The translations under genes were made by a program, and so were the position numbers. A DNA stretch of 64,000 nt from Planctomycetaceae bacterium (GTDB lineage: Bacteria; Planctomycetota; Phycisphaerae; Sedimentisphaerales; Anaerohalosphaeraceae), in the NCBI GenBank assembly GCA_021372945.1, contig JAJFTK010000024.1, positions 55,994 to 119,993 on the forward strand, given 5' to 3'. The notes under the pieces are model-generated. The model was not told where the DNA came from. It did no database searches and worked only from the letters and a program-made list of their open reading frames with translations. Shown in pieces: positions 14,211 through 56,217 of the stretch; position 1 is the first letter of the stretch, and each line of letters starts with the position of its first letter.

Positions 14211-14251
14211 CTTCCAAGCTGGTCATGACGGTTCGATTCCGTTCGCCCGCT
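14211..14251 (+). other. Attachment site: 3' fragment of tRNA-Gly(TCC)
   Basis: 41 bases starting in the anticodon loop (CTTCCAA) and ending with acceptor strand CGCCCGC plus T73. The T arm GACGG/TTCGATT/CCGTT folds correctly. Bases to the left do not form the 5' half of a tRNA. It differs from the copy at 56,177 only at the 50:64 pair (A-T here, T-A there). Confidence 0.8.
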
Positions 14252-14256
14252 GTAGC

Positions 14257-14289
14257 ACCGTAACTCAGGCTGCAACCTGCAATTACGGT
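14257..14289. other. Imperfect hairpin beside att
   Basis: ACCGTAA pairs with TTACGGT, and inside it CAGG pairs with CCTG. It lies 5 bases after the tRNA fragment and before the integrase. It could be a binding site for recombination proteins or attenuate read-through into the integrase; there is no T run. Confidence 0.4.
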
Positions 14290-14330
14290 ACTCAGCCACA
14301 ACGGACGTCTTTGGTCGTATACCAACGTAT

Positions 14331-14350
14331 ACCCAAATTTTTACCCAAAT
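14331..14350 (+). repeat. Arm-type site, left end of prophage 2
   Basis: ACCCAAATTTTTACCCAAAT contains two direct ACCCAAA units. A copy identical at 18 of 20 positions lies just inside the right end at 56,043. Paired short repeats flanking the core are typical binding sites for the integrase N-terminal domain. Confidence 0.6.
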
Positions 14351-14378
14351 ACTTTTGGGCAGAAAGGAGACGTCCAAG

Positions 14379-15461
14379 ATGGCATCGGTGAGATTTCGCG
14401 ACAAAGAACAGTACTGGGAAATTCGAAAGTACGTCACAGACCCCAAAACCCGAAAACCCCAAACCTTTACTGAGATCCTGCCGGCAAGCGCTACACGCGT
14501 CGATGTCGCCAAGGTCGCTGACCGGCTGGACCAGCAAGCCCAGGCCATCCGGACCGGCAAGTGGCGGCTGCCTGATTCGCCGCAGCGAGCCTATAACGAA
14601 TGGCTCCGCTACATCGCCAACAAGCCCGTCGGCCGCAAACGCAAGATGCTCACCGCCGGTACCCAAAGCCATTACAAACGTGTCGTCGATGAATTCCTAA
14701 GCAGCCTGCCCGGCCGGATCAAACGCATTACCCAGCTGACGCCAAACCATGTCGAAGCCTACAATAACAAGCTGCTTGATCGCGGCCTCTGTGCCCGCAC
14801 GGTCAACGCCAACCTGACGGCCATCAAGAGCTGGGCCTGGTGGCTCAACAGCATCTACGGCATTGAGAATTTCGCCGCTGAAGTCCTGATGTATACCGAA
14901 AATGAGCCCGACCAGCGATTCCTGACCGATGAAGAATACCCGGTCATCCTGGCCGCCGGCAGCGAAGTCTTTCGCCAGCGTTTTGAGTTCATCGGCAATA
15001 CGGGCGTGCGTGCGACGGAATTCTGTCAGCTCCGGTGGAAGGATATCACACCGGACCGCCAGTCCATCAAGGTACACGGCAAGGGCAACAAGACCCGCTA
15101 CGTCCCGCTCAATTCCATCTGCCTGCGGATCCTGGAGACCATCAAAAAGCAAACGCCTCCATTGGGTGCTAATCAAACTATATTCTTGTCAAAGAGCAAT
15201 TCACACGGCAACCTGGGCGGGCCCATCGAACGGCGGGTGCTGCACCTGCAGTGCCAGCACGTCAATGAGACGCTCCACCTGGAGCCGTTCGGACCCCACG
15301 CCTTTCGCCATTACTTTGCAACGATGCTGCTGGTCAAAGGCGTCCCGGTCGCTCATGTGTCAAAGATCCTTGGGCATTCATCGATCAAGACGACTGAAAC
15401 GATCTATGCCCACATCCTGCCCAGGCACCTGGCCGAAGTCACCGAATGCCTGTGCGGTTAA
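14379..15461 (+). CDS. int: Tyrosine integrase
   Basis: 360 residues from ATG 14379 (AAAGGAGA upstream; the frame is open to TTG 14355). The SAM-like N-terminal core-binding domain spans about residues 85-165. Catalytic residues are visible: Arg in NTGVRATEFCQLRW, Lys in HGKGNKTRYVPL, His-x-x-Arg in PHAFRHYFATMLL, His in LGHSSIKTTE and Tyr in TIYAHIL. It recombines phage and host att sites in the tRNA-Gly gene. It is the only integrase in the window and lies 128 bases from the att core. Confidence 0.95.
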   Translation: MASVRFRDKEQYWEIRKYVTDPKTRKPQTFTEILPASATRVDVAKVADRLDQQAQAIRTGKWRLPDSPQRAYNEWLRYIANKPVGRKRKMLTAGTQSHYKRVVDEFLSSLPGRIKRITQLTPNHVEAYNNKLLDRGLCARTVNANLTAIKSWAWWLNSIYGIENFAAEVLMYTENEPDQRFLTDEEYPVILAAGSEVFRQRFEFIGNTGVRATEFCQLRWKDITPDRQSIKVHGKGNKTRYVPLNSICLRILETIKKQTPPLGANQTIFLSKSNSHGNLGGPIERRVLHLQCQHVNETLHLEPFGPHAFRHYFATMLLVKGVPVAHVSKILGHSSIKTTETIYAHILPRHLAEVTECLCG

Positions 15462-15474
15462 TCACTGCTTCAAA

Positions 15475-15504
15475 ATGCCGTGCCCGTCCTAACGGGCACG
15501 GCAT
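15475..15504. terminator. Strong hairpin after integrase
   Basis: ATGCCGTGCCCGT and ACGGGCACGGCAT form a perfect 13-bp stem with a 4-base loop, 14 bases after the integrase stop. No T run follows, so termination would be weak or factor dependent; the position favours a terminator role. Confidence 0.55.
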
Positions 15505-15869
15505 CGGGTCTTTGCCCGCGTCAGCTCGATGATGCTCGTTACCCCGCTTGCGGCCTCTGGGCGTTTGAGGGCCTAACATCGAGCAGCCCACGCTATGCGT
15601 TTATGTCGATGCGGCGGTCCAGCTCCAACGGGATTATTTTTAATGGGCACCGCCGGCGAACAACCTTGAAACCCTATCCGCCGATTATTTGTGAAGCCGC
15701 GCTGCCCGCCGCATTTATTCAGTTTTCAAATATGGCTGTCTCTCCAGCCTGCCACAGTTTTTAGTGTCACTTTCGGGGGCTGTCTAAAACGGGGAAACTC
15801 GCCGTTTAGTTAGCCCTCCCCGAAATCCGCCGCCGTCAAAAGGGGTGACGAGCCCCGCGGCTTCACTAA
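15505..15869. other. Non-coding stretch between integrase and tRNA
   Basis: No gene with a credible start and composition is seen on either strand. GC-rich short inverted repeats are present but none is clearly functional. Confidence 0.4.
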
Positions 15870-15942
15870 TGGCAGGGGCCGGACTCGAACCGGCAACCTC
15901 GTGGTTATGAGCCACGCGAGCAGCCAATTGCTCTTCCCTGCT
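15870..15942 (-). tRNA. tRNA-Met(CAT), phage-borne
   Basis: 73 bases fold as a cloverleaf: acceptor AGCAGGG/CCCTGCC (6 pairs plus A1-C72 mismatch), D stem GAGC/GCTC, anticodon stem CGTGG/CCACG with loop CTCATAA, and T arm GCCGG-TTCGAGT-CCGGC. Anticodon CAT means elongator Met, or Ile if the C is modified to lysidine. CCA is not encoded. It is located between the integrase and the structural genes, so it is cargo of the prophage. Confidence 0.85.
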
Positions 15943-16041
15943 ATATAGACCATGCGGACCGGCAGAAGGAGGAGGAAGCGAAGGAGGACGCTTCCCAGGG
16001 CTATCCAGCCCGTATGGCAGAAGGAGCTATTAAATTTTCAA

Positions 16042-18665: not shown

Positions 18666-21600
18666 CTATTCTCCTGTAACCCGCAGCGCCGCTGCCGCGG
18701 CCGCCCGGTAAGACCGGCGGGGATAGACCTTGATCACCGCCTGACTATTATTGTTCAAATCATCGGCCTTGCTGATCACCGCCGAATCGGCATCGGCGGC
18801 AACTGACCGCTGGCCGATCTGCACGCCGGCGGCGGTCTCAAAGACCAGGTCCACCGCCTGCAGTTCGCCGTCCGCCAGGTAGTGCCCAAACGCCGCTCCA
18901 TCGCCTCCGGTAAGCTCTGATTCTGGATCGCCCCAGCGCCAGAGCGGATAGTCCGGATTGAGGTCAAAGCCGCCCTGATTAAAGCCCGTGCCGCGGGCCC
19001 CCGGGCGGTTCCAGTACAATGTAAACGAGCCGCCGGTGTAAACAGCCGGGGCGATATCTGATTCGGCCTGCTGGAGCCGTACAAGCGATGCGGCAAACGG
19101 CCGCTGCCACAGCCCCTGCACCTTGACGCTGGATGCGGATACCGCTGAGACGCTTTGCACCTTGCTGCCGTAAAAGCTGATCACCTTAAAGTACAGCGTC
19201 TTGCCGATATCGCCCTCGGTTAGCGTATAGGTGAAATCCGTGTCCAGTGTCTGGAACACCTCGCCGGCGGCGTGGGCGGCCGGGATGGTCCCGAACAAAC
19301 CCCGGATGAGATTCGACAGACGCCACGTGCCCGCCGTGGCGGTTTCGACACAATCGCGGTAGGCGATGATCTCGCTTCCCACACGGGCCAGCTTTCGATT
19401 ATTGAAGAACGCCTCGTCGGTGACGGCCGTGTCCAGGTCCGTGACCGTGCCGATAGAGACATTGAATCCCTCATCCTTGCGGTGCATGACGGCCGTATAG
19501 GCCGGCAGGCGGCTTTGAAGCGTGCCGCTGCTGTTGGCAGCCCCGCCGGTCACCTGGTCAATCGTACAGCGCCCCACGAGGTCATAGCTGATATTGTCAT
19601 AAGACCTGTAAATATACCAGCCGTTGGTCTGCGCGCCGCCGGGCGTGATCGACAGCAGCAGCTTTGCCTCCTGCGTGCTTTCGCGGAATGCCACGGTGCC
19701 ATTGGTCAGCGTTACCGCCGGATCCGGCTGCCGCAGCGAACGCTGCGTCGTATAAGCCAGCGTCGGGTACAGCGACGCGATATCCTCCACCGCCTCGATC
19801 TGGATGTGCTTGCCGTGCATCGACAGGTCGATCTTGGTAATCAGCACCTTCTGATTAGTGACAAGATGGCCATCGGAAAGCGTCACGCGGTCCCCAACCT
19901 CCAGCCCGAGGTGCTTGAATCCCACCTTGAAACTGTAGGTTTTGAACCGGTACATCACATTTATGAAATTTAGCCAGGCCATCCGGGCGGCCAGGTCCGG
20001 ATCATGAAAGCCTTTGATATCGACTACTTTGTGGCGGAGCAATCCCGATACCCGCTGATCAACCTCATCGAATGCCGGCACGGGGGTTTCCCGGTAGCGA
20101 TTCTGGCGGTCGCTCCAAACGGATTCGACGCGGTTAAAGGTCTCGGAATACTGGCGGGGCGTAATTCGCACGGGCGGTTCTTCCGATTCGCGGACCAGAT
20201 CATCCTGCGTGATCGTCGCGACTGCGTCCACCTGTCGAAGCATCGAGCCGATGCATATTTTGCCATTGGATTCATAGAGAAACCCCATAAAATGCGAGCA
20301 GATATATTGCAACCAATCGGCTATTGGCTGCTGACGGGTCAGTGCCACGCTCATCTTTATATTTTGTTCCTCACAATATGCCCTCGCCTCATCGAAAGTG
20401 CCGAGATTTAAAAGCGTCAATGGCAGTCCAATGCCTTTACGTTGGTCGGTCAGAAGTGCCTTTATGATGTCCGGAGGATACTCATCGTGCGCATCGGAGG
20501 AAAACGCGACGTTCGTCGCATATTCATGACGGTTTAAATTGCTCCCGGTAATGTACGCGAGCTTGCCTATTTTCCTCGTGTGTACCAGGGATAAGTCACG
20601 CCAGTCATAAATATATAATGTGTCATCATTAATGGGGATGCTCGGATAACTGTTTTTTGCCGCCCAAATATTCCCGTCAGGCCCCGGCCAAAAACAAGCA
20701 CCGTATGGAACATGCGCAACCTGCTCAAGCTTGAGAGCCGCCTCACCAGTTTTTTCAAAATCTTCAAGAACGCTGAATTTCCAAATGCGACAGGGACCGC
20801 CATTGTTGTAGGTTGCGTGATAACCCCATGCGTACAGATATCCCCTGTGCCAGAAGACGTCATTGATTGCAAATCCGTTGTCTGCACTGGTTTCGCTAGG
20901 TGCCCACCAATCAAGCAAGCGACCTTCCATAGTCCAAAGCGCCAACGGATAACTAAACATAGAAGCCCCGGTATACTGAGTTTGGGAACCCGCCATTAGC
21001 CCCTTTTCGCCTGTCACTGGGTTCTCAAAATCCTCCCACAAAGCCAGACCTAAAGTGCCTGGCAATTCAGCATAGGTGGTAAAAGGCACGCGTACATCGT
21101 AAACTAAATCAATGGCATCACCGCTTGCGGTAATGCGGCTGATTCGGTAATACGATATAGAGAAATAGGGGTCGGGACGAACGGCACCACGGTAGATGCG
21201 TCCGTGACTATCAACCGCTATTTGATAGGCGGGGCTGCGCGCGCCTCCGGGTAAGAATTTCCAGACTAAAGCGCCGTCACTGATGCGGTATTTATATAAC
21301 CAGTGTTCAGCCGCCACAATCAGGTGCGTCTTGTCCTTCGTGATCGCCATGGCCAGCGCCACGGCTGTAGGTACAGGATTAGGAATTTCAAAAAAATTCG
21401 CATCGCGAACCCCGGTCTGCAGATTGATACGGGTAAGCTGGGGATGGCCACTAGGGAATTGCCCGGCGATGTACATATATTTCCCAACTATGATGGGGTG
21501 TGCCTGTGTATCAGCATCCGTTATCCTCCAACTGGCGTGCGCATATTCCTGACCCGTAAAGGTTGCCACCGAAAAAGCAGACTTACGAATAATCACATGA

Positions 21601-22403
21601 GACGCTGTGATCTCTTCGATGGGGTATCCGTAGCTTAATGTATAAGCATGGCCCGGACCTCCGATGCATAGGTATTGTCCCACCTTAAAAGGGGCGCCCA
21701 CAATTGGAATACCAACGCGGCGATACCCTGGAACCGCCGATGCTTCCAAGTCTACTGCCGGACCAGGTGACACAGACGTGCCGCTGCCGTAGATCATGCG
21801 AATGTTGCCTTCTTCGGCGGTGACTGAAAATATACCAGTCGGCGTACTGCCGACTTCAAAAACAAAGTTTGGGATCGCCGGCGAGTTTCCCAGTTCGTAA
21901 TCCTCAAACCAGGCGCAGCACACGTTTTTATAATCGGTCCAGTCATCACCGATCAAATCCGCCAGGCCTACATTGCCGTCACCGCTAAAGGAAGTAAATT
22001 CGGTCAAGCTGATCTCATCCTTGCCTTTGAAACACCTGCCGATTGTCGCCGGCCCCTCGCAGATCGCGATCAGGAAGCTGCGGCGGTACCGGGCCTCATA
22101 GCTGGTGGATGTGTCACCGCCGCCTTTGCCGCCGGTTTCGTGCTTGACGTGATACGGCTGGGATGGTCCCAGCCAAATGATGTTGCCGGCCAGTTCCTTG
22201 GTTCCGAACACAATCGGCACCGGCTGGCCTTTGGTCGATGACTGCAGGGGATAGTCGCTAAACTCCGGCCGCTCGCCCTCAAACTTCATGGGATAGATGG
22301 CGCTGGCCACAGCATACGCTGCTATCGCGCCGATCGGTCCGCCAAAGTAGCTGCCTACAATCATCGCACCCGTGCGGAACAACGTGGCTCCCAGATTACT
22401 CAC
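18666..22403 (-). CDS. Tail tip attachment protein with inserted propeller-like domain
   Basis: 1,245 residues from GTG 22403 (GGGAGGA upstream; overlaps the NlpC gene stop). Residues 1-40 are hydrophobic and glycine rich; PVPIVFGTKELAGNIIWLG (about 61-79) is typical of J-like and GTA-like tip proteins. The tail-hub domain resumes at about 640 (DIIKALLTDQRKGIGLPLTL) and continues to beta and Fn3-like domains that reach the C-terminus. Between residues about 187 and 638 an extra 450 residues of repeated strand pattern is inserted. It should form the baseplate hub and bind the host. Confidence 0.8.
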   Translation of the reverse strand: MSNLGATLFRTGAMIVGSYFGGPIGAIAAYAVASAIYPMKFEGERPEFSDYPLQSSTKGQPVPIVFGTKELAGNIIWLGPSQPYHVKHETGGKGGGDTSTSYEARYRRSFLIAICEGPATIGRCFKGKDEISLTEFTSFSGDGNVGLADLIGDDWTDYKNVCCAWFEDYELGNSPAIPNFVFEVGSTPTGIFSVTAEEGNIRMIYGSGTSVSPGPAVDLEASAVPGYRRVGIPIVGAPFKVGQYLCIGGPGHAYTLSYGYPIEEITASHVIIRKSAFSVATFTGQEYAHASWRITDADTQAHPIIVGKYMYIAGQFPSGHPQLTRINLQTGVRDANFFEIPNPVPTAVALAMAITKDKTHLIVAAEHWLYKYRISDGALVWKFLPGGARSPAYQIAVDSHGRIYRGAVRPDPYFSISYYRISRITASGDAIDLVYDVRVPFTTYAELPGTLGLALWEDFENPVTGEKGLMAGSQTQYTGASMFSYPLALWTMEGRLLDWWAPSETSADNGFAINDVFWHRGYLYAWGYHATYNNGGPCRIWKFSVLEDFEKTGEAALKLEQVAHVPYGACFWPGPDGNIWAAKNSYPSIPINDDTLYIYDWRDLSLVHTRKIGKLAYITGSNLNRHEYATNVAFSSDAHDEYPPDIIKALLTDQRKGIGLPLTLLNLGTFDEARAYCEEQNIKMSVALTRQQPIADWLQYICSHFMGFLYESNGKICIGSMLRQVDAVATITQDDLVRESEEPPVRITPRQYSETFNRVESVWSDRQNRYRETPVPAFDEVDQRVSGLLRHKVVDIKGFHDPDLAARMAWLNFINVMYRFKTYSFKVGFKHLGLEVGDRVTLSDGHLVTNQKVLITKIDLSMHGKHIQIEAVEDIASLYPTLAYTTQRSLRQPDPAVTLTNGTVAFRESTQEAKLLLSITPGGAQTNGWYIYRSYDNISYDLVGRCTIDQVTGGAANSSGTLQSRLPAYTAVMHRKDEGFNVSIGTVTDLDTAVTDEAFFNNRKLARVGSEIIAYRDCVETATAGTWRLSNLIRGLFGTIPAAHAAGEVFQTLDTDFTYTLTEGDIGKTLYFKVISFYGSKVQSVSAVSASSVKVQGLWQRPFAASLVRLQQAESDIAPAVYTGGSFTLYWNRPGARGTGFNQGGFDLNPDYPLWRWGDPESELTGGDGAAFGHYLADGELQAVDLVFETAAGVQIGQRSVAADADSAVISKADDLNNNSQAVIKVYPRRSYRAAAAAALRVTGE

Positions 22404-23863: not shown

Positions 23864-24493
23864 CTACAACTCCTCAACCAAGTGCAGCTCGCCCGGCCGG
23901 TACCAGTCAATCGTATGATTGATATCCTCGTAGGTATCTTCGGCGAAGTATGCCTCAAAATAAAACTTGTAATCGGCCGTCAGCACCTGGCCCGTGGTCG
24001 GGGCAAAGCCCGTCCAGGTGATCATACCGGTGTCGTCATTGAGCGTGAAATCAACGCCTTCGACCTTGGCGGCGCCGTTGACCTTGATCGTCGGCGCGTA
24101 AACCGTGGACGGCTGGATCTTGGTTTTGTTTTCGGTCCAGGCCTCCGCCGTACCGGCGTAATAGGTCTTTTTTAGCTGCGTTGTCGCTTCACCGGTTGTA
24201 AGCACGTGGCTCCAGTCAGTGTAGGTGCAGGCATAGTCCCAAACACATTCATAGAGGAAATTAGACGTTTTGCCCCGTGCCCGGTTGAACAGCTCAATCA
24301 GCTTGTCCCTGGCGGCGGCATTTAGCCAGAGCCAGTTGATCCACCAGTGCCGCCGCGGGCGGGCAAGGATCTGATTGGCCTGGCGTTTGCCAGTGTCGTA
24401 GGTCACCTCATCGGAAAACCACTCAAACATTCGGCGGCGGCCTCCGATCTGCTCGCCGCCGGCATTCACAAAGTCGCGTATTTCGATAATCAT
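23864..24493 (-). CDS. DUF2460-like distal tail protein
   Basis: 209 residues, start after AGGAGGGG and overlapping the tape measure stop by four bases. GKRQANQILARPRRHWWINW and the later segment TDWSHVLTTGEATTQLKKTY fit the distal-tail proteins that precede the DUF2163 family. It probably forms the ring joining tail tube to hub. Confidence 0.75.
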   Translation of the reverse strand: MIIEIRDFVNAGGEQIGGRRRMFEWFSDEVTYDTGKRQANQILARPRRHWWINWLWLNAAARDKLIELFNRARGKTSNFLYECVWDYACTYTDWSHVLTTGEATTQLKKTYYAGTAEAWTENKTKIQPSTVYAPTIKVNGAAKVEGVDFTLNDDTGMITWTGFAPTTGQVLTADYKFYFEAYFAEDTYEDINHTIDWYRPGELHLVEEL

Positions 24494-26496
24494 CCGCCCC
24501 TCCTGATCCGGTGGTTGCGGCGCATCTGGCTGTACATTTGATTAGCAATGGGCCTGGCCATCTTGCCCACAAACTGCATCCCGCTTTGCGTGTCGATGGC
24601 CTGGACCGTTACGTTCATATTGAAGTTGTCGCCGCCACGTCCCAGCGCGGCCATTTGTTCGGGCGTGAAGACACCCTCGTCTCTTCTGAGCACCGCCGGC
24701 ACCTCGTCCGGCATAAACCCCTTGTGATAGCGAGGGGCGTTCAGGAACGCCGATGCCGGAACGAACCGGCTAAGCCCCAGGATGCCAGCAATCCCGCCGC
24801 CGTGCATGACCGGGGCGGCCATCCATTGTTCGCCCATGGCGGCCGCTGAGTTTAGGCTGGGCGTGGCACTGGCCGCGGCAGTGCCGGCACCGCCAGCTTT
24901 TCCGAAAAGACCTGAGAAAAATGCACCGCTGCCGCCGCCGGCAATCATGTCATCAATGCCGTTGGCAATTGGGGCCAGAATCAGCCGATTGGCAAAGATG
25001 CGCATTAGGTCCTCGGCTAAAGCTTGCAGGACGTTGGAGAGTTTTTCGCCTTCGATGATCGCGTCCCCAAAGGCCGAAGCGAACGTATCTCCGACCCTCA
25101 AGCCCTCCCGGCTGAGCTTGTCTGCCTTTTTGGAGGCGTTTTCCATGTCCTCGGCCGCCGCTTTAACTCCGCGATTGTAAGTGTCCAGCGTAATCAAATT
25201 GGCCTTCAGGGCCTCGTCCAGCTTTTCAACCTCTTCACGATATTTCTCCAGGGGTGTGCGGGTTTTATTGTAGACGCTTTCGGCGAACCGGCCCAACTCC
25301 TCAAGATGTGACTTCTGCTGCTCCAGCGCCTCAAAGTCAATCGGTACCGTGTTCTTCGATTGCTCTTGGATCTCAACCTGCCGCTGATCGACCTCGTTAA
25401 AGAACTCGGTCATTTCCTGGCGGAGTTTGCCAACGCTTTGTATCTGTTCGGCGGCTTGCTCCAGGTTCTTGCCGCCCGCATCGTACATCTCTTTGCCGAT
25501 GGCATCAATGTCGGCACTGATTTGTTTGGCCAGATCTGCCGTTTCTTCCATGTGCAGCTTTTCCGCCAGATTCCCAAATTTGGCCACAATCTCGGCGGGG
25601 ATAGCCGTTGAAACCGCCATGAGCCGCTGCACGGATCCAATGATGCCATTGACAACAGCCCGAACCACTTGAAAGGCATCCACCAGGTAGGTCGCTGCAA
25701 TCGCCGCTCCCTGAACATGTTTTTTGATCGTCTCCATACTGTTGTAACCGGACGTCAAATCCGTTGCGCGGTCGGCGATCACCTCAAGCGCCGGAGCCAA
25801 GCCTATGGAAATAGAGTTCGCCACTCCGATAGCTGATGCACGGGTCCGCTCCATCGCGTCATTGGCCGCTTCCACCTTGGACGCGTCCACTCTGCTAAAC
25901 GCAATCCCGAGCCGCTCGGCCTCAGCGATAACGCCGTCCAGGTCCTCTTCCATAAGATTGAGCATCTTGGATCCGGATCGCCCGAAGAGGTAATAAGCCG
26001 CCGCGGCCTTTTGTGATTGCGTATCCAATAGCTTGATCCGCTCGGCAATGAGCTTGAAGGCCTCATCCGGTTTTTTGTTGATCAAATCATTGATCGACAA
26101 ATCCAGCATCTCCATGCCTGTCTTCGCTTCGCCGCTGCCCTGTACAACTTCTCCCAGCCGGCGGACAAATATCTCGATGCCTTTATTGAATTCCTCGCTT
26201 GAAAGCCCGGCCAGTTGGGCAGCGTGCTGATAGGCGGACAGGGATTCAGTCGACATGCCGACGCGGTCCGCCAGCTTGGCCGTGGCATCAATGGCCTCCA
26301 TCTGGCTTTTGACCATGCGGGCCATGCCGTAAACGGCAACGCCGGCGGCAGCGACTCCCATCGTTGTCAGGATACCGGCCAGCCGGTTGACCGATGTATG
26401 CAGCCGCTTCAGATAGCCGTCCGCCTGAGAGGTCGCACGGTTCAGGCTGTCGGCGTTGCCTGTTATCTTTATCGCGATGGTTGAGATTGTTGACAT
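24490..26496 (-). CDS. Tail tape measure protein
   Basis: 668 residues. It starts directly at the stop of the upstream frame T (TAAATG). Long helical and coiled-coil stretches run from residue 20 to 430, then a Gly/Ala-rich hydrophobic part (about 510-560) and a C-terminal DNMNVTVQAID-type ending seen in lambda gpH and relatives. Such proteins set tail length; 668 residues predict a tail of roughly 100 nm by the usual 0.15 nm per residue. Confidence 0.85.
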   Translation of the reverse strand: MSTISTIAIKITGNADSLNRATSQADGYLKRLHTSVNRLAGILTTMGVAAAGVAVYGMARMVKSQMEAIDATAKLADRVGMSTESLSAYQHAAQLAGLSSEEFNKGIEIFVRRLGEVVQGSGEAKTGMEMLDLSINDLINKKPDEAFKLIAERIKLLDTQSQKAAAAYYLFGRSGSKMLNLMEEDLDGVIAEAERLGIAFSRVDASKVEAANDAMERTRASAIGVANSISIGLAPALEVIADRATDLTSGYNSMETIKKHVQGAAIAATYLVDAFQVVRAVVNGIIGSVQRLMAVSTAIPAEIVAKFGNLAEKLHMEETADLAKQISADIDAIGKEMYDAGGKNLEQAAEQIQSVGKLRQEMTEFFNEVDQRQVEIQEQSKNTVPIDFEALEQQKSHLEELGRFAESVYNKTRTPLEKYREEVEKLDEALKANLITLDTYNRGVKAAAEDMENASKKADKLSREGLRVGDTFASAFGDAIIEGEKLSNVLQALAEDLMRIFANRLILAPIANGIDDMIAGGGSGAFFSGLFGKAGGAGTAAASATPSLNSAAAMGEQWMAAPVMHGGGIAGILGLSRFVPASAFLNAPRYHKGFMPDEVPAVLRRDEGVFTPEQMAALGRGGDNFNMNVTVQAIDTQSGMQFVGKMARPIANQMYSQMRRNHRIRRGG

Positions 26497-33421: not shown

Positions 33422-34387
33422 TTAGCTAAATGTCGCCAGGGCTGCCTGCTGCCACATGCCGTAACCGACGTTGCGGGCAAAATCGATACCGAACAAGTAT
33501 TCCTTGTTCTTGAACGCATGCTCGGAGCCTTCGCCGAGGGCCTGGGCGTTGACACCCTGTTCCTCCTGGCGAATAAACGGCTTCGTGGCGGCGTCCGTGC
33601 GGAACACGGCAAACTGCGTGGTCCAGGTCAGCCGCGGATTGATCGACAGGCCGATCTCAAAACTTTCGCCATCGATCTTGAGATTACCCAAGACGTTGTC
33701 CACCACGCTGGCGCCTGTCGAAACAAACTGGCTGCCGAGCGCCTTGGCAAACGGGCCCATGAGGTAGGGCGTCGTCTGAACCAGGAACTTATGGGCGCCC
33801 GCGTTGCACAACTGGCCCTGATCGTCCTTGTAGGTCAGCATGTAGGCGATCACGCCCATGAGCGCGTCGACGACTTCAGAGGCTGTGGGGGCCGTTGCCG
33901 TGGTCACGTCAAGCTGAGCGACTTCGGCGTTGGTCAACAGGTTCTTCTGAATGCCGCTTGATCCTTCGGCGTGGTCGGTGTCGAAGAAGTACTGGCCATC
34001 ATAACACACGCCCAGCGTCGAGCCGGTACCGGCGGCGATGAGGGCGCTGAGCAGGATGCTCCAGTGCTCGGCGGCACGCATGGCCAGCTCATCGATGCGG
34101 ATGAGCGTCTGGCCGGATTTGTCGCGCATGAAGTCACGCCGCTTGAACTTGAGCGTGTCTTCAAATTCTTTGTTTTCGATCCGCAGACCGGCCTCGCGCA
34201 GGCCCTTGGCCAGGCGTTCGCCTTTCCACTCGCGGACGGCAGGGGTCGCTCCCAGCCAGTAGTAATCTTCATACGGCTGATCGCTTTCAAAGTACATCGA
34301 GATCATGTTGACGTATCCCTTGCCCAGGTACGCCTCCAGCCGGTTAAAGAACCGGGCGATCACGGAACGCATCGTTAACATTTCCAT
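33422..34387 (-). CDS. Major capsid protein, Mu gpT-like
   Basis: 321 residues, start after AAGGGATAG. DQPYEDYYWLGATPAVREWK followed by GERLAKGLREAGLRIENKEF and FKRRDFMRDKSGQTLIRIDE match the Mu-like prophage major head subunit gpT family over the N-terminal half; the rest has HK97-fold strand pattern. It forms the icosahedral shell. Its partner protease/scaffold lies upstream at 36-37 kb. Confidence 0.85.
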   Translation of the reverse strand: MEMLTMRSVIARFFNRLEAYLGKGYVNMISMYFESDQPYEDYYWLGATPAVREWKGERLAKGLREAGLRIENKEFEDTLKFKRRDFMRDKSGQTLIRIDELAMRAAEHWSILLSALIAAGTGSTLGVCYDGQYFFDTDHAEGSSGIQKNLLTNAEVAQLDVTTATAPTASEVVDALMGVIAYMLTYKDDQGQLCNAGAHKFLVQTTPYLMGPFAKALGSQFVSTGASVVDNVLGNLKIDGESFEIGLSINPRLTWTTQFAVFRTDAATKPFIRQEEQGVNAQALGEGSEHAFKNKEYLFGIDFARNVGYGMWQQAALATFS

Positions 34388-35959: not shown

Positions 35960-37087
35960 TTATTTTTTGACTTCGAAGATATCGACCTTACCGGCCTTCT
36001 GCGCCTTGACGAACGCCACGAAGTCGCCGACCTCCAGGAACTCCGCCTGCAGCTGGCCCGACTTTTCGTACTGCTCCTTGAGCTGCGCTTCGGTCATGGC
36101 TGAAAAGTCCGTGCCGCTCTTTGTGCCTGGCTTCTTGCCGGCGTTCTTGTTTTTGTTGACGTCGTCGGAAAACTCGCTCTCGGCCGTTTTGACGCCTTCC
36201 TGGCCGACTGCGGAGTTGTCGCCATCGGTGTTCTGGGTGGTGGCGTTTTTCTTTGCCTGCAGTTCGGCGATCTTCTCATCGCGGTTTTTGAGTTCGGCCG
36301 CCTGCTTGTCACATCGCATCTTCAGCGCCTCGGCCGTGGACTTATTGCCCGAAAACGCCTGCACGGTCAGTGCCGTGTCATCGCCGCAAGCCTCGGCGAT
36401 ATCCGCAAACTGCTGGCGGGTTTGTTTGCGGCCGTCTTCTGCGCCCGCGTCGAACACCTGCTTGTACAGCTCCGGATGCTGTTGTTTCAGTTCCTCAATG
36501 GTCATGATCTGCTTCCTTTCCAATTCTTCCGGGCGTTCGGCGAACGCTTCCGTCTTACAATTATTTAATGCACCGAAGACACACACGCTGCCTTCTTTGA
36601 CGACTGTATTTGTAAATACCGTTCCCGGGCCGGCCAGCGTCTTACTGTTAACCGCTGTCTTTTCACCGTCACGGACAAATCGGTATTTGCTCTTAAACTG
36701 ATCGAACTTCAAAGATGCCTCAAACGGAAATCCCTGGTCGGCATCCTGCAGCACCTTCTGCGCGTCAGCGTTTTCCAGTGCATAGCCTTCGAGAATGAAC
36801 GCTCCATCGAACGATGCCTTGTCCGCCACGCCGATGCGAACCGCAGTGTCATGACCGTAGAGAATCGGGATCCGTGCTTTTTCCAGCTTCATCCCCGCCA
36901 GGTCAAATGCCAGTTGGCCCCAGTACCAGTGTTGGGACACTCCGCCGTCATAAAGCTTTAACTTAAAGCGGCGGGGCTGGCCGTCCTTTTTTTCGGCGAA
37001 TTCTAAAACGTCTTCGCCGGATTGAAACTCGAACGCACCGGCCGGGGCCTTGATATGCAGCCTGTCGCCTGTCAATGTTTTATTCAT
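35960..37087 (-). CDS. Prohead protease with C-terminal scaffold
   Basis: 375 residues, start after CAGGAGG. N-terminal half: IPILYGHDTAVRIGVADKAS gives a conserved histidine and FPFEASLKFDQFKS a conserved serine, as in the herpes-type phage maturation proteases. From about residue 240 a long charged coiled coil (KQAAELKNRDEKIAELQAKK) followed by an acidic tail resembles a scaffold, as in Mu gpI/gpZ and lambda gpC/gpNu3. It overlaps the portal stop by four bases. Confidence 0.75.
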   Translation of the reverse strand: MNKTLTGDRLHIKAPAGAFEFQSGEDVLEFAEKKDGQPRRFKLKLYDGGVSQHWYWGQLAFDLAGMKLEKARIPILYGHDTAVRIGVADKASFDGAFILEGYALENADAQKVLQDADQGFPFEASLKFDQFKSKYRFVRDGEKTAVNSKTLAGPGTVFTNTVVKEGSVCVFGALNNCKTEAFAERPEELERKQIMTIEELKQQHPELYKQVFDAGAEDGRKQTRQQFADIAEACGDDTALTVQAFSGNKSTAEALKMRCDKQAAELKNRDEKIAELQAKKNATTQNTDGDNSAVGQEGVKTAESEFSDDVNKNKNAGKKPGTKSGTDFSAMTEAQLKEQYEKSGQLQAEFLEVGDFVAFVKAQKAGKVDIFEVKK

Positions 37088-38565
37088 GCAGCCTCCTGCT
37101 TGGGCTTTGCCGGCGGATTCTTTTTCTCCGGCGAGTTTACGATTTCGGCTTCCTCGGCCTGACGGTTCTTTTCCACGTCCTCAAACCGCACGCCTTTGGC
37201 CGCACATATCTGATGGCGGTTATGGGTGCGGTTTTCAAGCATCAGCGATTCGGCCTGTGCTTCACGGAATGGATCCACATACGGCCAGCGATTGCAATTC
37301 ACTGAGATACTGTATTTGTCGGGATGATCGGTCAGGTTCCCCAGTGCGATCTGGCGATTTACCCACCACCGCCAGGTACGCCACACGAAGGGCTTGAGCA
37401 CCCGCTCCTGCTCGGCCATCCAAAGTTTTTGGACCTGCTGCAGGGCAATGCGGGCGTTCATGAACGTGGCACCGCTAAAATCCAGGGTGATCAGCATTAA
37501 GGGCATCGATAACGGCCGGCCGCACAAACTCATCAAGAGCTTGACGAACATCTCAAACTGCTGACCCGGCCGGCTCTGGCCGATCCCCGTGGCGGTCTCA
37601 TCCTGCTCGCCATACAGAATCTGCCCTGGTTCGAGCGCCTCCTGGCGATAACCGGTCCGCTCATCGACGGGAGCCGCTGAGCCCGACCGCTCGTACAGCG
37701 TCGGCGGAGCGATTTCGCCATAGGGATTCTTTTTGGCAATGAACATCGTAAAGCACGCGTTCACGCGGGCTGCCACGATCTCAGCGTCCAGATATCCATC
37801 CAGCATGTCCAGCCATTTGAGACTGCTCGTCAGTGCCGGTTCGCCGCGGCTGCTGCTGATGCGTTCGGGGTTAAAGATGTGGTGGACGTGCTCAGCACGG
37901 TACGCCTTCCAGCTGGTCGCATCGATGATGCCCCACTTATTGGGTTTGCCGATGTAATAACCCAGGCGGCGGCGTTTCTCATTGTACGCGATGCCGTTAA
38001 CGATGAGCAGCTTGTCGGGTGTTTTGCCCAACGGCGTCCCCACCTGTTCGCCCTCGATCATCTGCAGCCCATCATCCGAGAAAACCGTGAACGCATCGCC
38101 GTCGCGGCGATAGCTCTTGTAATACGTGCTGACATAGGTCGGCCAGGCATGCACGCCCATGTTGTCACATGCCTCTTCGATCATCGTCTGACGCCAGAGC
38201 ACCGCGGCCTTCTTGCCCCAGTCGCCTGCAACCTCCACCTCAATCGAGGGACCGGCGGCGCCGACAACGTCGTTTGTTTCATCCCCGAGCATGCCGGAAA
38301 CAATGCTGTTATTGCGTGACAGGTCGCGGGCCGTCTCGCGCAGATCGTTCTGCACGGCCTCGGTTAAAATCGCGTCCCCTGTGGATTTGTGTTTTTTGCG
38401 GTCCTTGCGGAGCCGGCTGCCGTCAAGCACCTCATAGGCGAACCGGTACTGCTTACGGCGGAAAGCCCTCTCCGGGTCGAGGATGCCGACCAGCGAATCG
38501 AGCTGGCGGCTCAGCCACCAGTTCATCCCGCTCGGTTCTCGATATGTATTGCGCGTCTCTCTCAT
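37084..38565 (-). CDS. Portal protein, lambda gpB family
   Basis: 493 residues. NSIVSGMLGDETNDVVGAAG, WKAYRAEHVHHIFNPERISS and LDFSGATFMNARIALQQVQK are the signature motifs of lambda-type portal proteins; the arginine- and tryptophan-rich wing near residue 415 (WRTWRWWVNRQIALGNL) is also typical. It forms the 12-part ring for DNA passage. Its neighbours are gpW-like and protease genes, as in lambda. Confidence 0.9.
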   Translation of the reverse strand: MRETRNTYREPSGMNWWLSRQLDSLVGILDPERAFRRKQYRFAYEVLDGSRLRKDRKKHKSTGDAILTEAVQNDLRETARDLSRNNSIVSGMLGDETNDVVGAAGPSIEVEVAGDWGKKAAVLWRQTMIEEACDNMGVHAWPTYVSTYYKSYRRDGDAFTVFSDDGLQMIEGEQVGTPLGKTPDKLLIVNGIAYNEKRRRLGYYIGKPNKWGIIDATSWKAYRAEHVHHIFNPERISSSRGEPALTSSLKWLDMLDGYLDAEIVAARVNACFTMFIAKKNPYGEIAPPTLYERSGSAAPVDERTGYRQEALEPGQILYGEQDETATGIGQSRPGQQFEMFVKLLMSLCGRPLSMPLMLITLDFSGATFMNARIALQQVQKLWMAEQERVLKPFVWRTWRWWVNRQIALGNLTDHPDKYSISVNCNRWPYVDPFREAQAESLMLENRTHNRHQICAAKGVRFEDVEKNRQAEEAEIVNSPEKKNPPAKPKQEAA

Positions 38566-40009: not shown

Positions 40010-42049
40010 CTATAATTTGCGATAGCCGTCCAGCCAGCCGCCGCCCGTTGGGCGCCGCCGCACGGGGGCCCTGCGTACCGGCTGCGTTCGCTCTGCCATT
40101 GCTTGTTCAATCCGCTGCAGTTCCGCCTCGCTTACAAACGAATCGACGTTCTTAAAATACCCCGCCGCCGTCGCATACACGCTCACATCAAGTCCGTGCG
40201 TGCCCAGCCCGTCATCCTTCACCCACCAGCCCCACTGGCCCTTGTCGTTACGGCCCTTGTATTCGTTGGTCAGCTCTTTGAAAAACTCGGGCGGCATCTC
40301 GCGATTATAGCGCGTGCTGGCCGGCGCATCGAACGGCGCCTCGGCCCAGTCCGCAACCAGATCCTTGAATTGATCCACAGCCAAGTCAATCAGTTCCATA
40401 CCCCGGTACTGTGACGCCATGCGGCCGCGGTAGTGTCGCTTCTCGGCCGCCTCCACCACCTTGTCCAGCGGACGGCTGTAGAATCGCTCCACCAGGTCCG
40501 AGCGTCCGCGAATCGGGTACCAAATCCGCAGCCTCCAATAGTTCTTACAGAACTTGTAGACCTCATCGATAACGCCCCTGGCCCGTTGATCCGGCTGATA
40601 GCCGGAGTCCACGAATCCGCAGGCCAGCATCAACTCCGGCCGGCCGCAATCCTGGGCCCAGGGGAACGATTGAGAGGTTGTCACACGAAACATCTCCTCC
40701 AGCGACGCGGCATGACCGAAAAGAATATCATCGCTGCGCAGATCATCGCTCCAGGCTTTGACGATGTAGTCCACGCGGATGTTGCCCATCGCGTCTTTGT
40801 GGAAATCCGCTCCAGCCGTCAGCAGCTTGGCCGTCACCGGGACAACGCCAGCCGGCAGATCGTTTTTCTTTTCATCGAGCGCATGCCCGCTGATCACGCG
40901 GACCTCTTCCTTCCAGGGAAGATTTCGCTGGTTGAGTTGCCAGTTTTTTAGCTTCTTCTTTTTGCCCTTACGCAGATCCTCATCCGCTTCGACATATTGA
41001 GCGGCCAGCGAACCGACCTTGGCGAATTCGGGCCAGAGCATCATCGCATGCACGTTGAATGAGAATTTATCTGCCTCGCCTGGTTCGCCTATGATTTTGC
41101 CGTTCGGGTCCATCTCTTGACCCTTGGGTACCCAAAGCCCTTCTTTATTGCTGCGCCAGCGATCCGCCTCCGACCAGCCCTGTTTGCACTGGGGACAAAC
41201 ATACCGGCTGTGTTTACCGCTCTTGTATCGGCTGTGATGATAATACTGGCCGCCCTCTGTATCGAGAACGATGTACTGCTCGCCTTTCGGGTCAACGTAC
41301 GTCTGCAGCTTATGCCAGCGGCCGCACAGCATACACGGCACATACCATTGTTCATCGCTGCCGCTGCGGACCTGTGAATCAAACAGGTCCCCGGCATTCT
41401 GCGGACTGGATACCCCCAGCTCCCGCATGATAGCGCTGTAGGTCCTTTGGCGGTTGCGCCCCAGCTCAATGGGATCCTCGTCGGTGGTGGTGATGATATC
41501 GAACTTTCCCACCTCGTCGTAAATCATGTTCTGGATCGTCGAATCCGCCAGCTTGGCGGCGCTCGTTGCCCAGATTAGATACAGCAGCATGTCGCCCAAA
41601 TCGGTCTCTTCGCCGATGTTGAGGTTGCGGACGTCACGCCCGATCTTTTCATACAATACTGGATTGGCCGCAAACAGCGGACGGATCTTGGTGCGGATGC
41701 GTTTCTTCGCGTCGCCTTCCTGCGGCATGACAATACCGGTCGGTCCCGGATCGATCGCGCAGATGTACGCCAGGAGCAATTGAACCAGCGTTGTCTTTAC
41801 CCCCTGTGTGCAGGCCGATATCCATACGCTGACCGGCGGCCGCTCCAGGAGCTGCATCGGCCGGCGGATAAATGGCGTGTACTCATCATTCCACTGGCCG
41901 GATATTTTCGACGTCTTGGCGGGCAGACAGAAGTTTTCACGGGCCCACTCCAGCATCGGCGGCTTTGGAGGCGGGTTCAAAATGTTCCGTTCCAATTCCG
42001 TAATCGGCATCGGCTCGGGCCACTCGTATGTTAATACTGGAGTTGTCAT
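40010..42049 (-). CDS. Terminase large subunit, lambda gpA family
   Basis: 679 residues. MLEWARENFCLPAKTSKISG then WNDEYTPFIRRPMQLLERPP and SACTQGVKTTL (a Walker A-like loop of this family, about residue 84) are typical of gpA-like ATPases; the C-terminal nuclease has VDSGYQ and further acidic residues. Zinc cysteines CMLCG and CPQCKQG sit at about 240-290. It cuts concatemers and pumps DNA into the head. Start ATG 42049 has only a weak ribosome-binding site. Confidence 0.9.
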   Translation of the reverse strand: MTTPVLTYEWPEPMPITELERNILNPPPKPPMLEWARENFCLPAKTSKISGQWNDEYTPFIRRPMQLLERPPVSVWISACTQGVKTTLVQLLLAYICAIDPGPTGIVMPQEGDAKKRIRTKIRPLFAANPVLYEKIGRDVRNLNIGEETDLGDMLLYLIWATSAAKLADSTIQNMIYDEVGKFDIITTTDEDPIELGRNRQRTYSAIMRELGVSSPQNAGDLFDSQVRSGSDEQWYVPCMLCGRWHKLQTYVDPKGEQYIVLDTEGGQYYHHSRYKSGKHSRYVCPQCKQGWSEADRWRSNKEGLWVPKGQEMDPNGKIIGEPGEADKFSFNVHAMMLWPEFAKVGSLAAQYVEADEDLRKGKKKKLKNWQLNQRNLPWKEEVRVISGHALDEKKNDLPAGVVPVTAKLLTAGADFHKDAMGNIRVDYIVKAWSDDLRSDDILFGHAASLEEMFRVTTSQSFPWAQDCGRPELMLACGFVDSGYQPDQRARGVIDEVYKFCKNYWRLRIWYPIRGRSDLVERFYSRPLDKVVEAAEKRHYRGRMASQYRGMELIDLAVDQFKDLVADWAEAPFDAPASTRYNREMPPEFFKELTNEYKGRNDKGQWGWWVKDDGLGTHGLDVSVYATAAGYFKNVDSFVSEAELQRIEQAMAERTQPVRRAPVRRRPTGGGWLDGYRKL

Positions 42050-54684: not shown

Positions 54685-54687
54685 GTC

Positions 54688-54987: not shown

Positions 54988-55206
54988 TTAGTTGTAGCTC
55001 GTGATGCCCATCCGCCGATGCAACTCCCGCTGCTTCATCTTGGCCCGATCCACCAGGCTATGACTCCACAGCGCCAACAATGCCATGGCGTAGATGAACA
55101 ACAGGGGTACGGCGTACCGGCCTGGCTGATGTTTCATCAGTTCCAGCATGAACATCACCAGCACGATCACATTGACAAAAACCGTCGCAAAAATACCTTT
55201 CCACAT
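54988..55206 (-). CDS. Two-span membrane protein
   Basis: 72 residues from ATG 55206 (AAGGAGTAATC). Two transmembrane helices, GIFATVFVNVIVLVMFMLEL and YAVPLLFIYAMALLALWSHS, separated by a short loop and followed by a basic tail. It could be an early membrane protein such as a superinfection exclusion factor; the role is unknown. Confidence 0.55.
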   Translation of the reverse strand: MWKGIFATVFVNVIVLVMFMLELMKHQPGRYAVPLLFIYAMALLALWSHSLVDRAKMKQRELHRRMGITSYN

Positions 55207-55400
55207 TTGATTACTCCTTAATTGAATTACCGTTATCATTAAATCCAACGTTCGGCGGCGGGCAGAACTAAATCTGCATCTCACGGAGCAACCTACTTTC
55301 CTCTTTGCATTTGGGAATGAGGCATAGTGTTCGTTTGCGCCGCTTTATACTGATGGTCCCAAATCCATCAGCCGCCGCCGCCCGTCAGTTCCTGTCACAA

Positions 55401-55703
55401 TCAGCCCGCCTTGTTCATTTGGCGTTCAATCGGTTCGAGCATTTCGCGCCGGCCGGTCAGCCCATCCAGTAAAACTATCCCGAAGAACTGTTCCAGTTCC
55501 ATGTGCCCTTCGGCATCGAGATGTTTTCTTGCCGCTTCGTTACGCAGGTACATCCGCCGGAGAGATTCAGCCATCAACGGCTGCAGATTCGGCTCCAGTT
55601 CCCGCCAGAACCGACGGTCCTCTTCCGTCGTGGTCTGCTGCCAGGCGTTTTCGTCAATCGGTTCAACCACTGCGTCCTGTTTTTTTGCTTCATCCTGAGC
55701 CAT
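55401..55703 (-). CDS. Hypothetical acidic protein, first early gene
   Basis: 100 residues. Acidic and helical (WRELEPNLQPLMAESLRRMY). It is the first gene at the right end of prophage 2, so it should be transcribed early in leftward direction. No family is recognised. Confidence 0.55.
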   Translation of the reverse strand: MAQDEAKKQDAVVEPIDENAWQQTTTEEDRRFWRELEPNLQPLMAESLRRMYLRNEAARKHLDAEGHMELEQFFGIVLLDGLTGRREMLEPIERQMNKAG

Positions 55704-55731
55704 GTTTTCTCCAATTCGCTAAGGTTTCAAA

Positions 55732-55760
55732 GGCGGGCGGATCGTACGGACCCGCCCGCT
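55732..55760 (-). terminator. Hairpin between leader and first early gene
   Basis: Minus strand GCGGGCGGGTCC / GGATCCGCCCGC-type arms form a stem of about 11 bp with loop GTAC and are followed by CTTTGAAA. It lies upstream of the first early gene and may act as an attenuator. Confidence 0.45.
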
Positions 55761-55775
55761 GCCGGTTTTTGCCGA

Positions 55776-55797
55776 CTATTTCATCTTGACCTCCTTT
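55776..55797 (-). other. Strong ribosome-binding site with two-codon ORF
   Basis: AAAGGAGGT, a 9-base Shine-Dalgarno match, is followed after 4 bases by ATG AAA TAG. The hairpin at 55,732 comes 16 bases later. It may be a leader that couples translation to the hairpin, or the remnant of a gene. Confidence 0.4.
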
Positions 55798-56042
55798 CCG
55801 CGGTTGCGAAATCCAGTGATCAAGTCGCTCCATATAAACGGCGGGCGAAGGAGGGGGCGCCCGCCGTCGTGCCATTGGCGGCCTTTCAGCGCAAAGCCGC
55901 GGCAACGACTGTCTAAAAGGCGGCGCACAGGACGGCCAAATAGGTGGGGAATACAAGATGTGTCCGGGTGCACCGCCTGGTACCGATATACAAAGGCCCT
56001 ATTCCTTCAGAGCCGTACCGGTACCCCGGCCGATTGGTTAGC

Positions 56043-56062
56043 ACCCAAATTTCTACCCAAAA
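56043..56062 (+). repeat. Arm-type site, right end of prophage 2
   Basis: ACCCAAATTTCTACCCAAAA matches the left-end copy at 14,331 in 18 of 20 bases, same orientation. It lies 115 bases inside the att core. Confidence 0.6.
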
Positions 56063-56067
56063 TGAAC

Positions 56068-56096
56068 TTGATTGCGGTGTGTTACGGGTATATGAT
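56068..56096 (+). promoter_or_regulatory. Promoter reading toward right att
   Basis: TTGATT (56,068-56,073) and TATGAT (56,091-56,096) with 17-base spacer. In the integrated state it reads into host DNA; after circularisation it would read across attP into the integrase. Confidence 0.5.
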
Positions 56097-56176
56097 GGAT
56101 TACTGTGAAATGTAAAATATACGGCTAAAGCCCCAGAAACGTGAACCCACTGACCCAAAAACAGCGTTGAGCAAAA

Positions 56177-56217
56177 CTTCCAAGCTGGTCATGTCGGTTC
56201 GATTCCGATCGCCCGCT
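56177..56217 (+). other. Attachment site: 3' fragment of tRNA-Gly(TCC)
   Basis: Same 41-base tRNA 3' part as at 14,211 with two differences forming one swapped base pair (T50-A64). CTTCCAA anticodon loop, T arm GTCGG-TTCGATT-CCGAT, acceptor strand CGCCCGC plus T73, followed by TTTT. The 5' half is absent. It is the original host 3' end displaced by integration. Confidence 0.8.

Follow-up and report, generated by a model that had tools for sequence, protein, structure and literature searches.

Two prophages in tandem at a planctomycete tRNA-Gly(TCC) gene and a paired T-stem difference between their attachment cores

Organization of the locus

The window, a stretch of 64,000 nucleotides, lies within contig C58, which is 120 kb long and comes from a planctomycete genome. 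Along the contig the order is an intact tRNA-Gly(TCC) gene, a 54.5-kb prophage, a 41-base tRNA 3' fragment, a 42.0-kb prophage and a second 41-base 3' fragment. The fragments are at C58:70204 and C58:112170, both on the plus strand and 3' of the intact gene. The host assembly, probably a short-read MAG, consists of 146 contigs. Among its 41 ARAGORN tRNAs there is a single tRNA-Gly(TCC) gene; as completeness is 95.86%, the assembly may lack a further TCC gene. The main features are as follows (window positions unless prefixed C58).

C58:15716-15786, plus strand: intact tRNA-Gly(TCC), 40 kb left of the window, with an integrase next to it
C58:15746 to 70203: 54.5-kb prophage, whole element, the left 40 kb of which lie outside the window
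1..14251, no strand assigned: right-hand part of the 54.5-kb prophage and its right att core (features of the element are the tRNA and integrase on the left, head, portal and terminase matches, and end repeats)
7663..8538, minus strand: exonuclease of the 54-kb phage (phrog_2139, E 1.7e-30)
8468..9796, minus strand: DnaB-like replicative helicase of the 54-kb phage (phrog_19, E 7.2e-88)
12844..13782, minus strand: RNA ligase of the 54-kb phage, near the att site (phrog_548, E 5.1e-37; PF09414, E 3e-19)
14099..14118, plus strand: direct-repeat pair, CAGTGTACT twice, in the right-hand arm of the 54-kb phage (absent from all 50 mononucleotide shuffles)
14211..14251, plus strand: middle att core, tRNA-Gly(TCC) 3' half with A50-T64, attributed to the 42-kb phage
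14331..14350, plus strand: direct-repeat pair, ACCCAAAT twice, in the left arm of the 42-kb phage
14379..15461, plus strand: integrase of the 42-kb phage (ATG start, frame open from TTG at 14355; PF00589, E 5.2e-30)
18666..22403, minus strand: tail tip or fibre protein (J-like) of the 42-kb phage (phrog_1101, E 3.2e-59; phrog_31, E 8.3e-21)
24490..26496, minus strand: tape measure protein of the 42-kb phage (phrog_9483, E 3.5e-50)
33422..34387, minus strand: major head protein of the 42-kb phage (phrog_371, E 2.3e-47)
35960..37087, minus strand: head maturation protease of the 42-kb phage (phrog_3244, E 3.1e-20)
37084..38565, minus strand: portal protein of the 42-kb phage (phrog_21, E 1.4e-55)
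40010..42049, minus strand: large terminase of the 42-kb phage (phrog_15, E 8.1e-78)
56043..56061, plus strand: direct-repeat pair, ACCCAAA twice, in the right arm of the 42-kb phage
56177..56217, plus strand: right att core, tRNA-Gly(TCC) 3' half with T50-A64, resident before the 42-kb phage
56218..56401, plus strand: sequence right of the last core, resembling the DNA after the host tRNA-Gly(CCC), probably an older element's arm

Both elements have the genes of tailed phages. The 42-kb element encodes a large terminase, portal, major head protein and tape measure, and only one of its ten proteins compared with phrog profiles had no match. In the 54-kb element, of which the block at 1-14 kb is the replication end, matches to the major head protein (phrog_14242), portal (phrog_156) and large terminase (phrog_2, a profile matched in part only) are located at C58:46.9-53.7 kb, and five of ten proteins compared were without a match. 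Judged by the definition of tandem tRNA-targeting islands in PMC4383910, the locus has an intact tRNA gene at one end, a same-strand tRNA fragment 3' of the gene for each element, a tyrosine integrase (PF00589) in both elements, and element sizes (54.5 and 42.0 kb) within the range of 2-200 kb. By these sequence features, the locus is an arrangement of two distinct predicted temperate phages integrated in tandem at the host tRNA-Gly(TCC). The preliminary description, which covered the window, had placed an intact tRNA-Gly(TCC) and a second integrase to the left of it; both are there, and the integrase adjoins the tRNA rather than being absent from its side.

That description had also taken the block at 1-14 kb to be a second element at the same insertion site, and its separate integrase, structural genes and end repeats agree with this. 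The opposite reading, in which this block and the 42-kb block make up a single large phage with the middle fragment as a duplicate inside it, draws on the adjacency of the blocks and on the homology of the integrases (39% identical) and on nothing further; with two integrases, two sets of head, portal and terminase genes, and end repeats peculiar to each element, it is extremely improbable, and the two blocks are best regarded as different phages. The end repeats also bear on the assembly. CAGTGTA pairs occur in the contig only at C58:15883 (15883-15903) and 70092, which are the two ends of the 54-kb element; ACCCAAA pairs are likewise confined to positions 70324 and 112036, the two ends of the 42-kb phage (0 in 50 mononucleotide shuffles). 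Separate lysogens or contigs could have been joined at the 41-base repeat, given that the assembly is in 146 contigs and that the tRNA and right-hand cores are an exact repeat of this length. Such a misjoin is improbable because the end repeats tie together both ends of each element, each bounded by its own pair, and all of this is contained in one 120-kb contig.

The attachment cores

As had been described, two 41-base tRNA 3' halves bracket the 42-kb prophage, and both lack the 5' half; 100 dinucleotide shuffles yielded no match to them. The only two bases that distinguish the middle half from the right one are those at standard positions 50 and 64 (A/T versus T/A); the other 39 are identical. 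Comparison of positions bears out the earlier statement that the two differing bases pair with each other. A third 41-base copy, inside the intact tRNA, is identical to the right-hand fragment, and the identity of the three cores starts at base 32, in the anticodon loop.

Each version was said to keep a good T stem, and RNAfold predicts the same cloverleaf for both when the whole tRNA is folded (-28.3 and -28.0 kcal/mol). When the T arm is folded alone, the one-base intermediates have energies of -2.4 and -2.0 kcal/mol versus -4.7 and -4.4 for the paired versions, with the loss of two outer pairs; in the whole-tRNA fold the remaining stems survive in one intermediate, and the second intermediate refolds. 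It could be supposed that both fragments are dead copies and that the paired difference is chance drift, as decayed tRNA 3' fragments are known elsewhere in this genome (for example, C135:10608-10689). Against this, the probability that two substitutions placed at random in the 41 bases would fall on a single T-stem pair and leave it Watson-Crick is ~0.002, a figure from simple arithmetic in which all changes are equally likely, the 39 other positions are identical, and the same pair is found in the intact tRNA of a congener. Drift, which the preliminary description had already found hard to accept, is thus very improbable, and the paired change suggests that the phage-borne half has been under selection at the RNA level.

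Right flank and host setting

Sequence to the right of the last core is 74% identical over 222 bases, part of the core included, to the DNA that follows the host tRNA-Gly(CCC). With the core removed, the local score is 165, and none of 200 mononucleotide shuffles scored above 28. Judging from this resemblance, the stretch beyond the last fragment probably belongs to an older element as one of its arms, and plain host DNA is a less likely identity for it. The arm motif is absent from loci L004 and L007-L011, the host genome's other integrase matches. Genes further to the right look like ordinary host genes; of two that were compared, one had no match and one had a PEP-CTERM match. A dehydrogenase gene that follows this tRNA in several relatives is on a different contig in the host, and the 500 bases preceding it hold no tRNA fragment.

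The A50-T64 pair and phage scars in related genomes

The A50-T64 pair is rare. It occurs in 2 of 37 copies from the 32 of 398 class genomes that have the core, an estimate that rests on those 32 genomes since the remaining 366 gave no match to the core pattern. At the level of the order it was found in 2 of 25 copies (21 of 162 genomes), and in genome_contigs, where the host's own records may be left out, in 1 of 22 stretches. Viral contigs with the core (three stretches, four copies) all have T50-A64 with G51-C63. The only intact tRNA with A50-T64 is the tRNA-Gly(TCC) of congener G007, which adjoins a proA-like gene and precedes a dehydrogenase gene, a setting common to relatives.

The preliminary description had proposed that the two cores come from different functional tRNA-Gly genes, one carried from another host lineage and one original to this host. 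Comparison with related genomes supplied a functional-looking tRNA-Gly(TCC) with A50-T64 in G007, and by this shared rare variant supports a possible origin of the half in another host lineage, while being compatible with transfer either way. The word original fared less well. It is weakened because the right flank resembles an older arm and the dehydrogenase gene is on another contig, and the right-hand half is better described only as resident before the 42-kb phage.

Alternatively, A50-T64 could have arisen in the lineage of the 42-kb phage by mutation and compensation, the match in G007 being due to convergence or later receipt. Phage-derived halves do appear to be retained in host tRNAs: in congener G010 an intact T50-A64 tRNA precedes a 42-type left arm, which has an ACCCAAA pair (local score 58, against no more than 24 in any of 1000 mononucleotide shuffles), and a dehydrogenase gene comes next, and G033 and G036 have 54-type CAGTGTA pairs after the tRNA, with neither integrase matched within 12 kb downstream. 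However, few copies have this precise double change (2 of 37) and the one-base intermediates weaken the T arm, so two independent origins of A50-T64 are unlikely, and the G007 tRNA has neither a 42- nor a 54-type phage arm alongside. An origin within the phage lineage is therefore rather unlikely. In G007 neither of the integrases (E <= 1e-30) nor the 42-kb terminase (E <= 1e-50) found a match, and thus the shared rare base pair is the sole indication of contact between its lineage and the phage. The G010 scar, associated with T50-A64, implies that 42-type phages are not bound to a single stem version, and suggests that phage-derived tRNA halves may become permanent.

Relatives of the phages themselves are distant. 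Among 199 genomes, homologues of the two integrases (E <= 1e-30) were found in 11 and 13, the host's own included in both, with 30-43% identity outside it. Apart from the host, a tRNA-Gly with the core motif flanked such a locus only in G096, where the 5' end of the tRNA is towards the integrase, and the flanks were of no use for placing attP. Thirty loci in viral contigs match only 36 residues around the conserved C-terminal motif of the integrase and were left unused; a second search of the viral contigs for close integrase relatives found none. Relatives of the 42-kb terminase occur in 8 of the 199 genomes, the host's included (29-36% identity outside it), and none of these is elsewhere in the genus. 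Phage records gave 398 matches to this terminase and 5 to the 54-kb portal, all below 60% identity, and hence no close relative of either protein.

Proposed exchange of tRNA halves

It is very likely that the two phages integrated in tandem by exchange of 3' halves at the tRNA-Gly(TCC) gene and that the A50-T64 half was brought by the 42-kb phage. Each phage would carry the tRNA 3' half in its attP, and integration would rebuild a working tRNA while displacing the previous half to the far side of the element. Strand exchange would take place in the anticodon loop, as the shared left boundary at base 32 suggests. If so, the bases 3' of the exchange, 50 and 64 included, remain with the phage to the right; since these positions travel with the phage, the A50-T64 half would be that of the 42-kb phage regardless of which element integrated first. 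The matched base swap thereby indicates which half belongs to which phage. The A50-T64 pair would have been kept because this half is the working 3' end in a lysogen of the 42-kb phage alone, where it matters because no second copy of the tRNA was found. With less certainty, the half may have come from a different lineage within the genus, one with A50-T64 in its own tRNA-Gly(TCC) as in G007, or be common to that lineage and the phage.

A wider reading is that attP halves carry alleles of tRNA genes, such that lysogeny gives a tRNA that is single-copy and presumably essential a phage-borne 3' half, decayed prophages leave the phage version behind permanently, and compensated T-stem variants move between species. 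This is put forward tentatively, as a possibility that falls short of being probable. If true, the evolution of this tRNA would proceed partly by horizontal exchange of half-genes under a pairing constraint. The locus allows two phage halves of one tRNA to be separated cleanly by a paired change, and the congener scars offer a way to test whether host tRNA genes are rewritten by lysogeny on an evolutionary timescale.

Comparison with known systems

Tandem prophages in tRNA genes, including those with unequal cores, are already published, and tandem accretion of integrative elements has been reported as well. In Mycobacterium abscessus T36, T38 and T48, prophages prophiT36-2a and prophiT36-2b are in tandem at tRNA-Thr (PMC9934374). 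According to the portions of that report covered here, these are likewise two unlike phages with their own integrases at one tRNA, with non-identical cores of ~40 bp, and phage-borne bases alter the rebuilt tRNA; the core overlaps a repressor gene. The core changes there leave two unpaired positions in the acceptor stem, which the authors speculate are complemented by a phage-borne tRNA-Thr, whereas the T-stem changes described here pair. A partial tRNA copy opposite an intact gene is also a feature of the tRNA-fragment islands in PMC9897764, one of which differs by 1 bp in a 44-bp repeat; the sections covered describe single islands and no paired change. The literature searched, in which few subscription papers were covered, holds no report of a paired swap between att cores.

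The Islander database lists 125 tandems of two or more for 2168 genomes (PMC4383910). As far as the covered part of that source goes, its tandems resemble the present locus in having an intact tRNA, same-strand fragments, and one integrase and one fragment per island, and an anticodon-centred attP is among its classes; they differ in that paired fragment changes are not mentioned there, and in that the host here is an uncultured planctomycete. The tandem arrangement is thus a known one, to which this locus adds the detail of a matched swap, the rare variant of which is intact in one congener.

Two prophages in tandem at one tRNA-Gly gene

The genome that holds the window (G000; 3.58 Mb in 146 contigs, completeness 95.86%) possesses a single tRNA-Gly(TCC) gene among its 41 ARAGORN-called tRNA genes, which also include one Gly(GCC) and one Gly(CCC) gene; the calls come from 42 Rfam matches, the weakest of which was uncalled. 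The preliminary description predicted an intact tRNA-Gly(TCC) with an integrase beside it to the left of the window, and both are found there on contig C58, of which the window covers positions 55994-119993, up to the contig's right end. The last 41 bases of the intact gene are identical to the right copy of the core, and the middle and right copies differ from each other solely at positions 50 and 64, which pair with each other in the T stem, confirming what had been noted from the sequence. No core copy beyond these three occurs in the genome at three or fewer mismatches.

Core copies and end repeats of the two elements
C58:15716-15786, intact tRNA-Gly(TCC), 40 kb left of the window
window 14211-14251, middle tRNA-Gly(TCC) 3' half, 41 bases, A50-T64
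window 56177-56217, right tRNA-Gly(TCC) 3' half, 41 bases, T50-A64
C58:15883 and 70092, CAGTGTACT direct-repeat pairs near the left element ends
C58:70324 and 112036, ACCCAAA direct-repeat pairs near the right element ends

The left element (54,458 bp) extends from the core of the intact tRNA as far as the middle copy, and the right element (41,966 bp) spans the interval between the middle and right copies. The first and second core copies are each followed by an integrase gene on the same strand as the core, and the 39% identity of the two integrases fits with a common target. Ten proteins of each element were scanned with profiles. Five from the left element lack a match, the remainder including one match each to a major head protein, a portal and part of a large terminase, and the part of this element within the window carries helicase, exonuclease and RNA ligase genes. 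One of the ten from the right element lacks a match, and the rest include a large terminase, portal, protease, major head protein, tape measure and J-like tail protein. The direct-repeat pairs near the element ends speak strongly against reading the two blocks as a single composite phage. Both pairs are absent elsewhere in the 120-kb contig on either strand, neither arose in 50 mononucleotide shuffles (one strand), and they are probably arm-type integrase sites. The repeats link the far left end of the 54-kb element with window 14.1 kb and, for the 42-kb element, one end with the other, which bears out the view that the block at 1-14 kb is an element separate from the 42-kb prophage.

In the 54-kb phage, the large terminase is seemingly split over two adjacent frames (L014 12046-13697, which is C58:52046-53697), with a phrog_2 match on the ATPase side and, on the nuclease side, a weak PF17289 match below the Pfam cut-off. 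The RNA ligase gene of this phage (window 12844-13782) lies near the att site; RNA ligases of this kind can mend cut tRNAs, which makes the enzyme of interest in a phage that resides in a tRNA gene. A phage-borne tRNA-Met(CAT) is located just past the integrase of the 42-kb phage (window 15869-15943, minus strand).

Proposed assignment of the tRNA halves to the phages

Identity among the three core copies starts at base 32, which opens the anticodon loop, and to the left of this base the sequence differs copy by copy. In the relative G036, a displaced fragment stands before a dehydrogenase gene, the one found after the tRNA in other relatives, and departs from that genome's own tRNA at base 32 only; this places the exchange within or to the right of the anticodon loop. 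According to PMC4383910, crossover subsites known in tRNA genes include the anticodon loop. With an exchange there, whatever tRNA half lies right of an exchange point would move with the DNA on its right. The T50-A64 half of the intact tRNA would then belong to the 54-kb phage, A50-T64 would belong to the 42-kb phage, and the right copy would be the resident before the 42-kb phage arrived. Given loop exchange, this assignment is independent of the order of integration.

Phage-derived halves appear to have been left behind in related genomes. In G010, about 100 bp matching the left arm of the 42-kb phage, ACCCAAA pair included, lie behind an intact T50-A64 tRNA (local score 58; 1000 mononucleotide shuffles gave 24 at most), and a dehydrogenase gene lies directly after the arm, where the integrase would be expected to start. 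The CAGTGTA pair of the 54-kb phage follows the tRNA in G033 and G036, where a search limited to the two integrases found neither within 12 kb downstream. Either repeat code occurs at four of 30 intact-tRNA loci (31 copies; G000, G010, G033 and G036), two of the 30 (L033 and L045) being uninformative because they stop no more than 60 bases from the tRNA. These arm remnants indicate that phage-derived 3' halves apparently persist in host tRNA genes once the phage has gone. The T50-A64 stem beside a 42-type arm in G010 shows that this kind of phage, as recognized from its putative arm, carries both stem versions.

An intact gene plus a separate fragment (three or fewer mismatches) is present in five of 40 family genomes (G000, G005, G020, G034 and G036); the difference between them is a paired one in the T stem in two, a single one outside the T stem in two, and absent in one. 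The second paired difference is that of G020, with G51-C63 in the intact tRNA and C51-G63 in a fragment on another contig, an arrangement that does not establish membership in one element.

Distribution and source of the A50-T64 stem

A core pattern left open at positions 50, 51, 63 and 64, among a few others, recovered 37 copies in 32 of 398 genomes of the class, with A-T at 50:64 in two and T-A in 35; the other 366 have a different core or none assembled and are uninformative on the stem. Within the order there are 25 copies in 21 of 162 genomes (A-T in two). The genome_contigs collection yielded 22 stretches (A-T in one, T-A in 19, and G-C and C-G in two distant ones), 20 of them named as Planctomycetota MAGs (Phycisphaerae, Phycisphaerales, Sedimentisphaerales or phylum only). 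The sole A-T copy outside the window in these searches is the intact tRNA of a congener, G007, so that the A50-T64 gene predicted for another lineage does exist.

The G007 tRNA lies beside a proA-like gene and ahead of a putative zinc-type alcohol dehydrogenase gene, both named from their translations. Both neighbours recur in G001, the dehydrogenase side in G010, G035 and G036 (there behind the displaced fragment), and the proA side in G005 as well as in other genera. The G007 tRNA adjoins no phage arm of either repeat code, and G007 has no match, at the limits used, to either integrase or to the 42-kb terminase. The A50-T64 stem is common to the window and another species of the genus, and transfer could have run in either direction. 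The dehydrogenase gene of G000 itself is located on contig C13, and the 500 bases preceding it contain no tRNA fragment. A decayed tRNA-Gly 3' fragment of G000 at C135:10608-10689 (L218 1609-1690; L218 is C135:9000-12500) aligns with A-T at 50:64 and several other changes, and its trailing sequence resembles that right of window 56217.

The right flank and other tRNA-borne elements

Core included, the stretch that starts with the right copy shares 74% identity over 222 bases with the sequence at tRNA-Gly(CCC), C3:24147, also in G000; leaving the core out gives a local score of 165 (200 mononucleotide shuffles reached no more than 28). Shorter similar stretches lie behind tRNA-Gly(TCC) copies in other genera, and such stretches hold repeats resembling arm sites. 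They probably represent the arm of an older element of a third kind, and the right copy therefore need not be native. Of the proposal that the right copy is original to the host, what stands is residence before the 42-kb phage, if exchange occurred in the loop. Within such limits, the earlier interpretation of the two halves is supported.

At the CCC locus (L217, C3:22000-26500), positions 2115-4499 hold, in this order, the tRNA, an arm of the right-flank type and a gene for a Cas3-like helicase; this may be a second family of elements in tRNA-Gly genes, one with CRISPR-Cas as cargo. tRNA-Gly(TCC) fragments with similar left flanks occur in three genera (G005:C102, G034:C267 and G020:C167; L138, L149 and L150), those of G005 and G034 extending further 5' into the anticodon stem, and may belong to another integrative element family. 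In L187 (IMGVR_UViG_3300024262_006205), 9.4 kb separate an intact tRNA-Gly(TCC) from a 3' fragment; this small element with the same target is perhaps a satellite. G000 has six other integrase-family matches, and five of these (on C139, C94, C47, C34 and C17, one of them under the Pfam cut-off) have a tRNA gene no more than 300 bases away; the genome has many tRNA-borne elements.

Comparison with known systems

Tandem islands in tRNA genes are established, with 125 tandems listed for 2168 genomes in PMC4383910. A literature search, with most subscription papers outside its coverage, found no published report of unequal att-core bases that pair with each other. The closest known match is M. abscessus T36 (PMC9934374), where two unlike prophages reside at tRNA-Thr and the unequal cores probably impair the rebuilt tRNA; here, in contrast, the unequal bases pair with each other. 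The arrangement is of a known kind with an instructive detail, and what is added is that the unequal core bases are mutually pairing and that a related species has the rare version in its intact gene.
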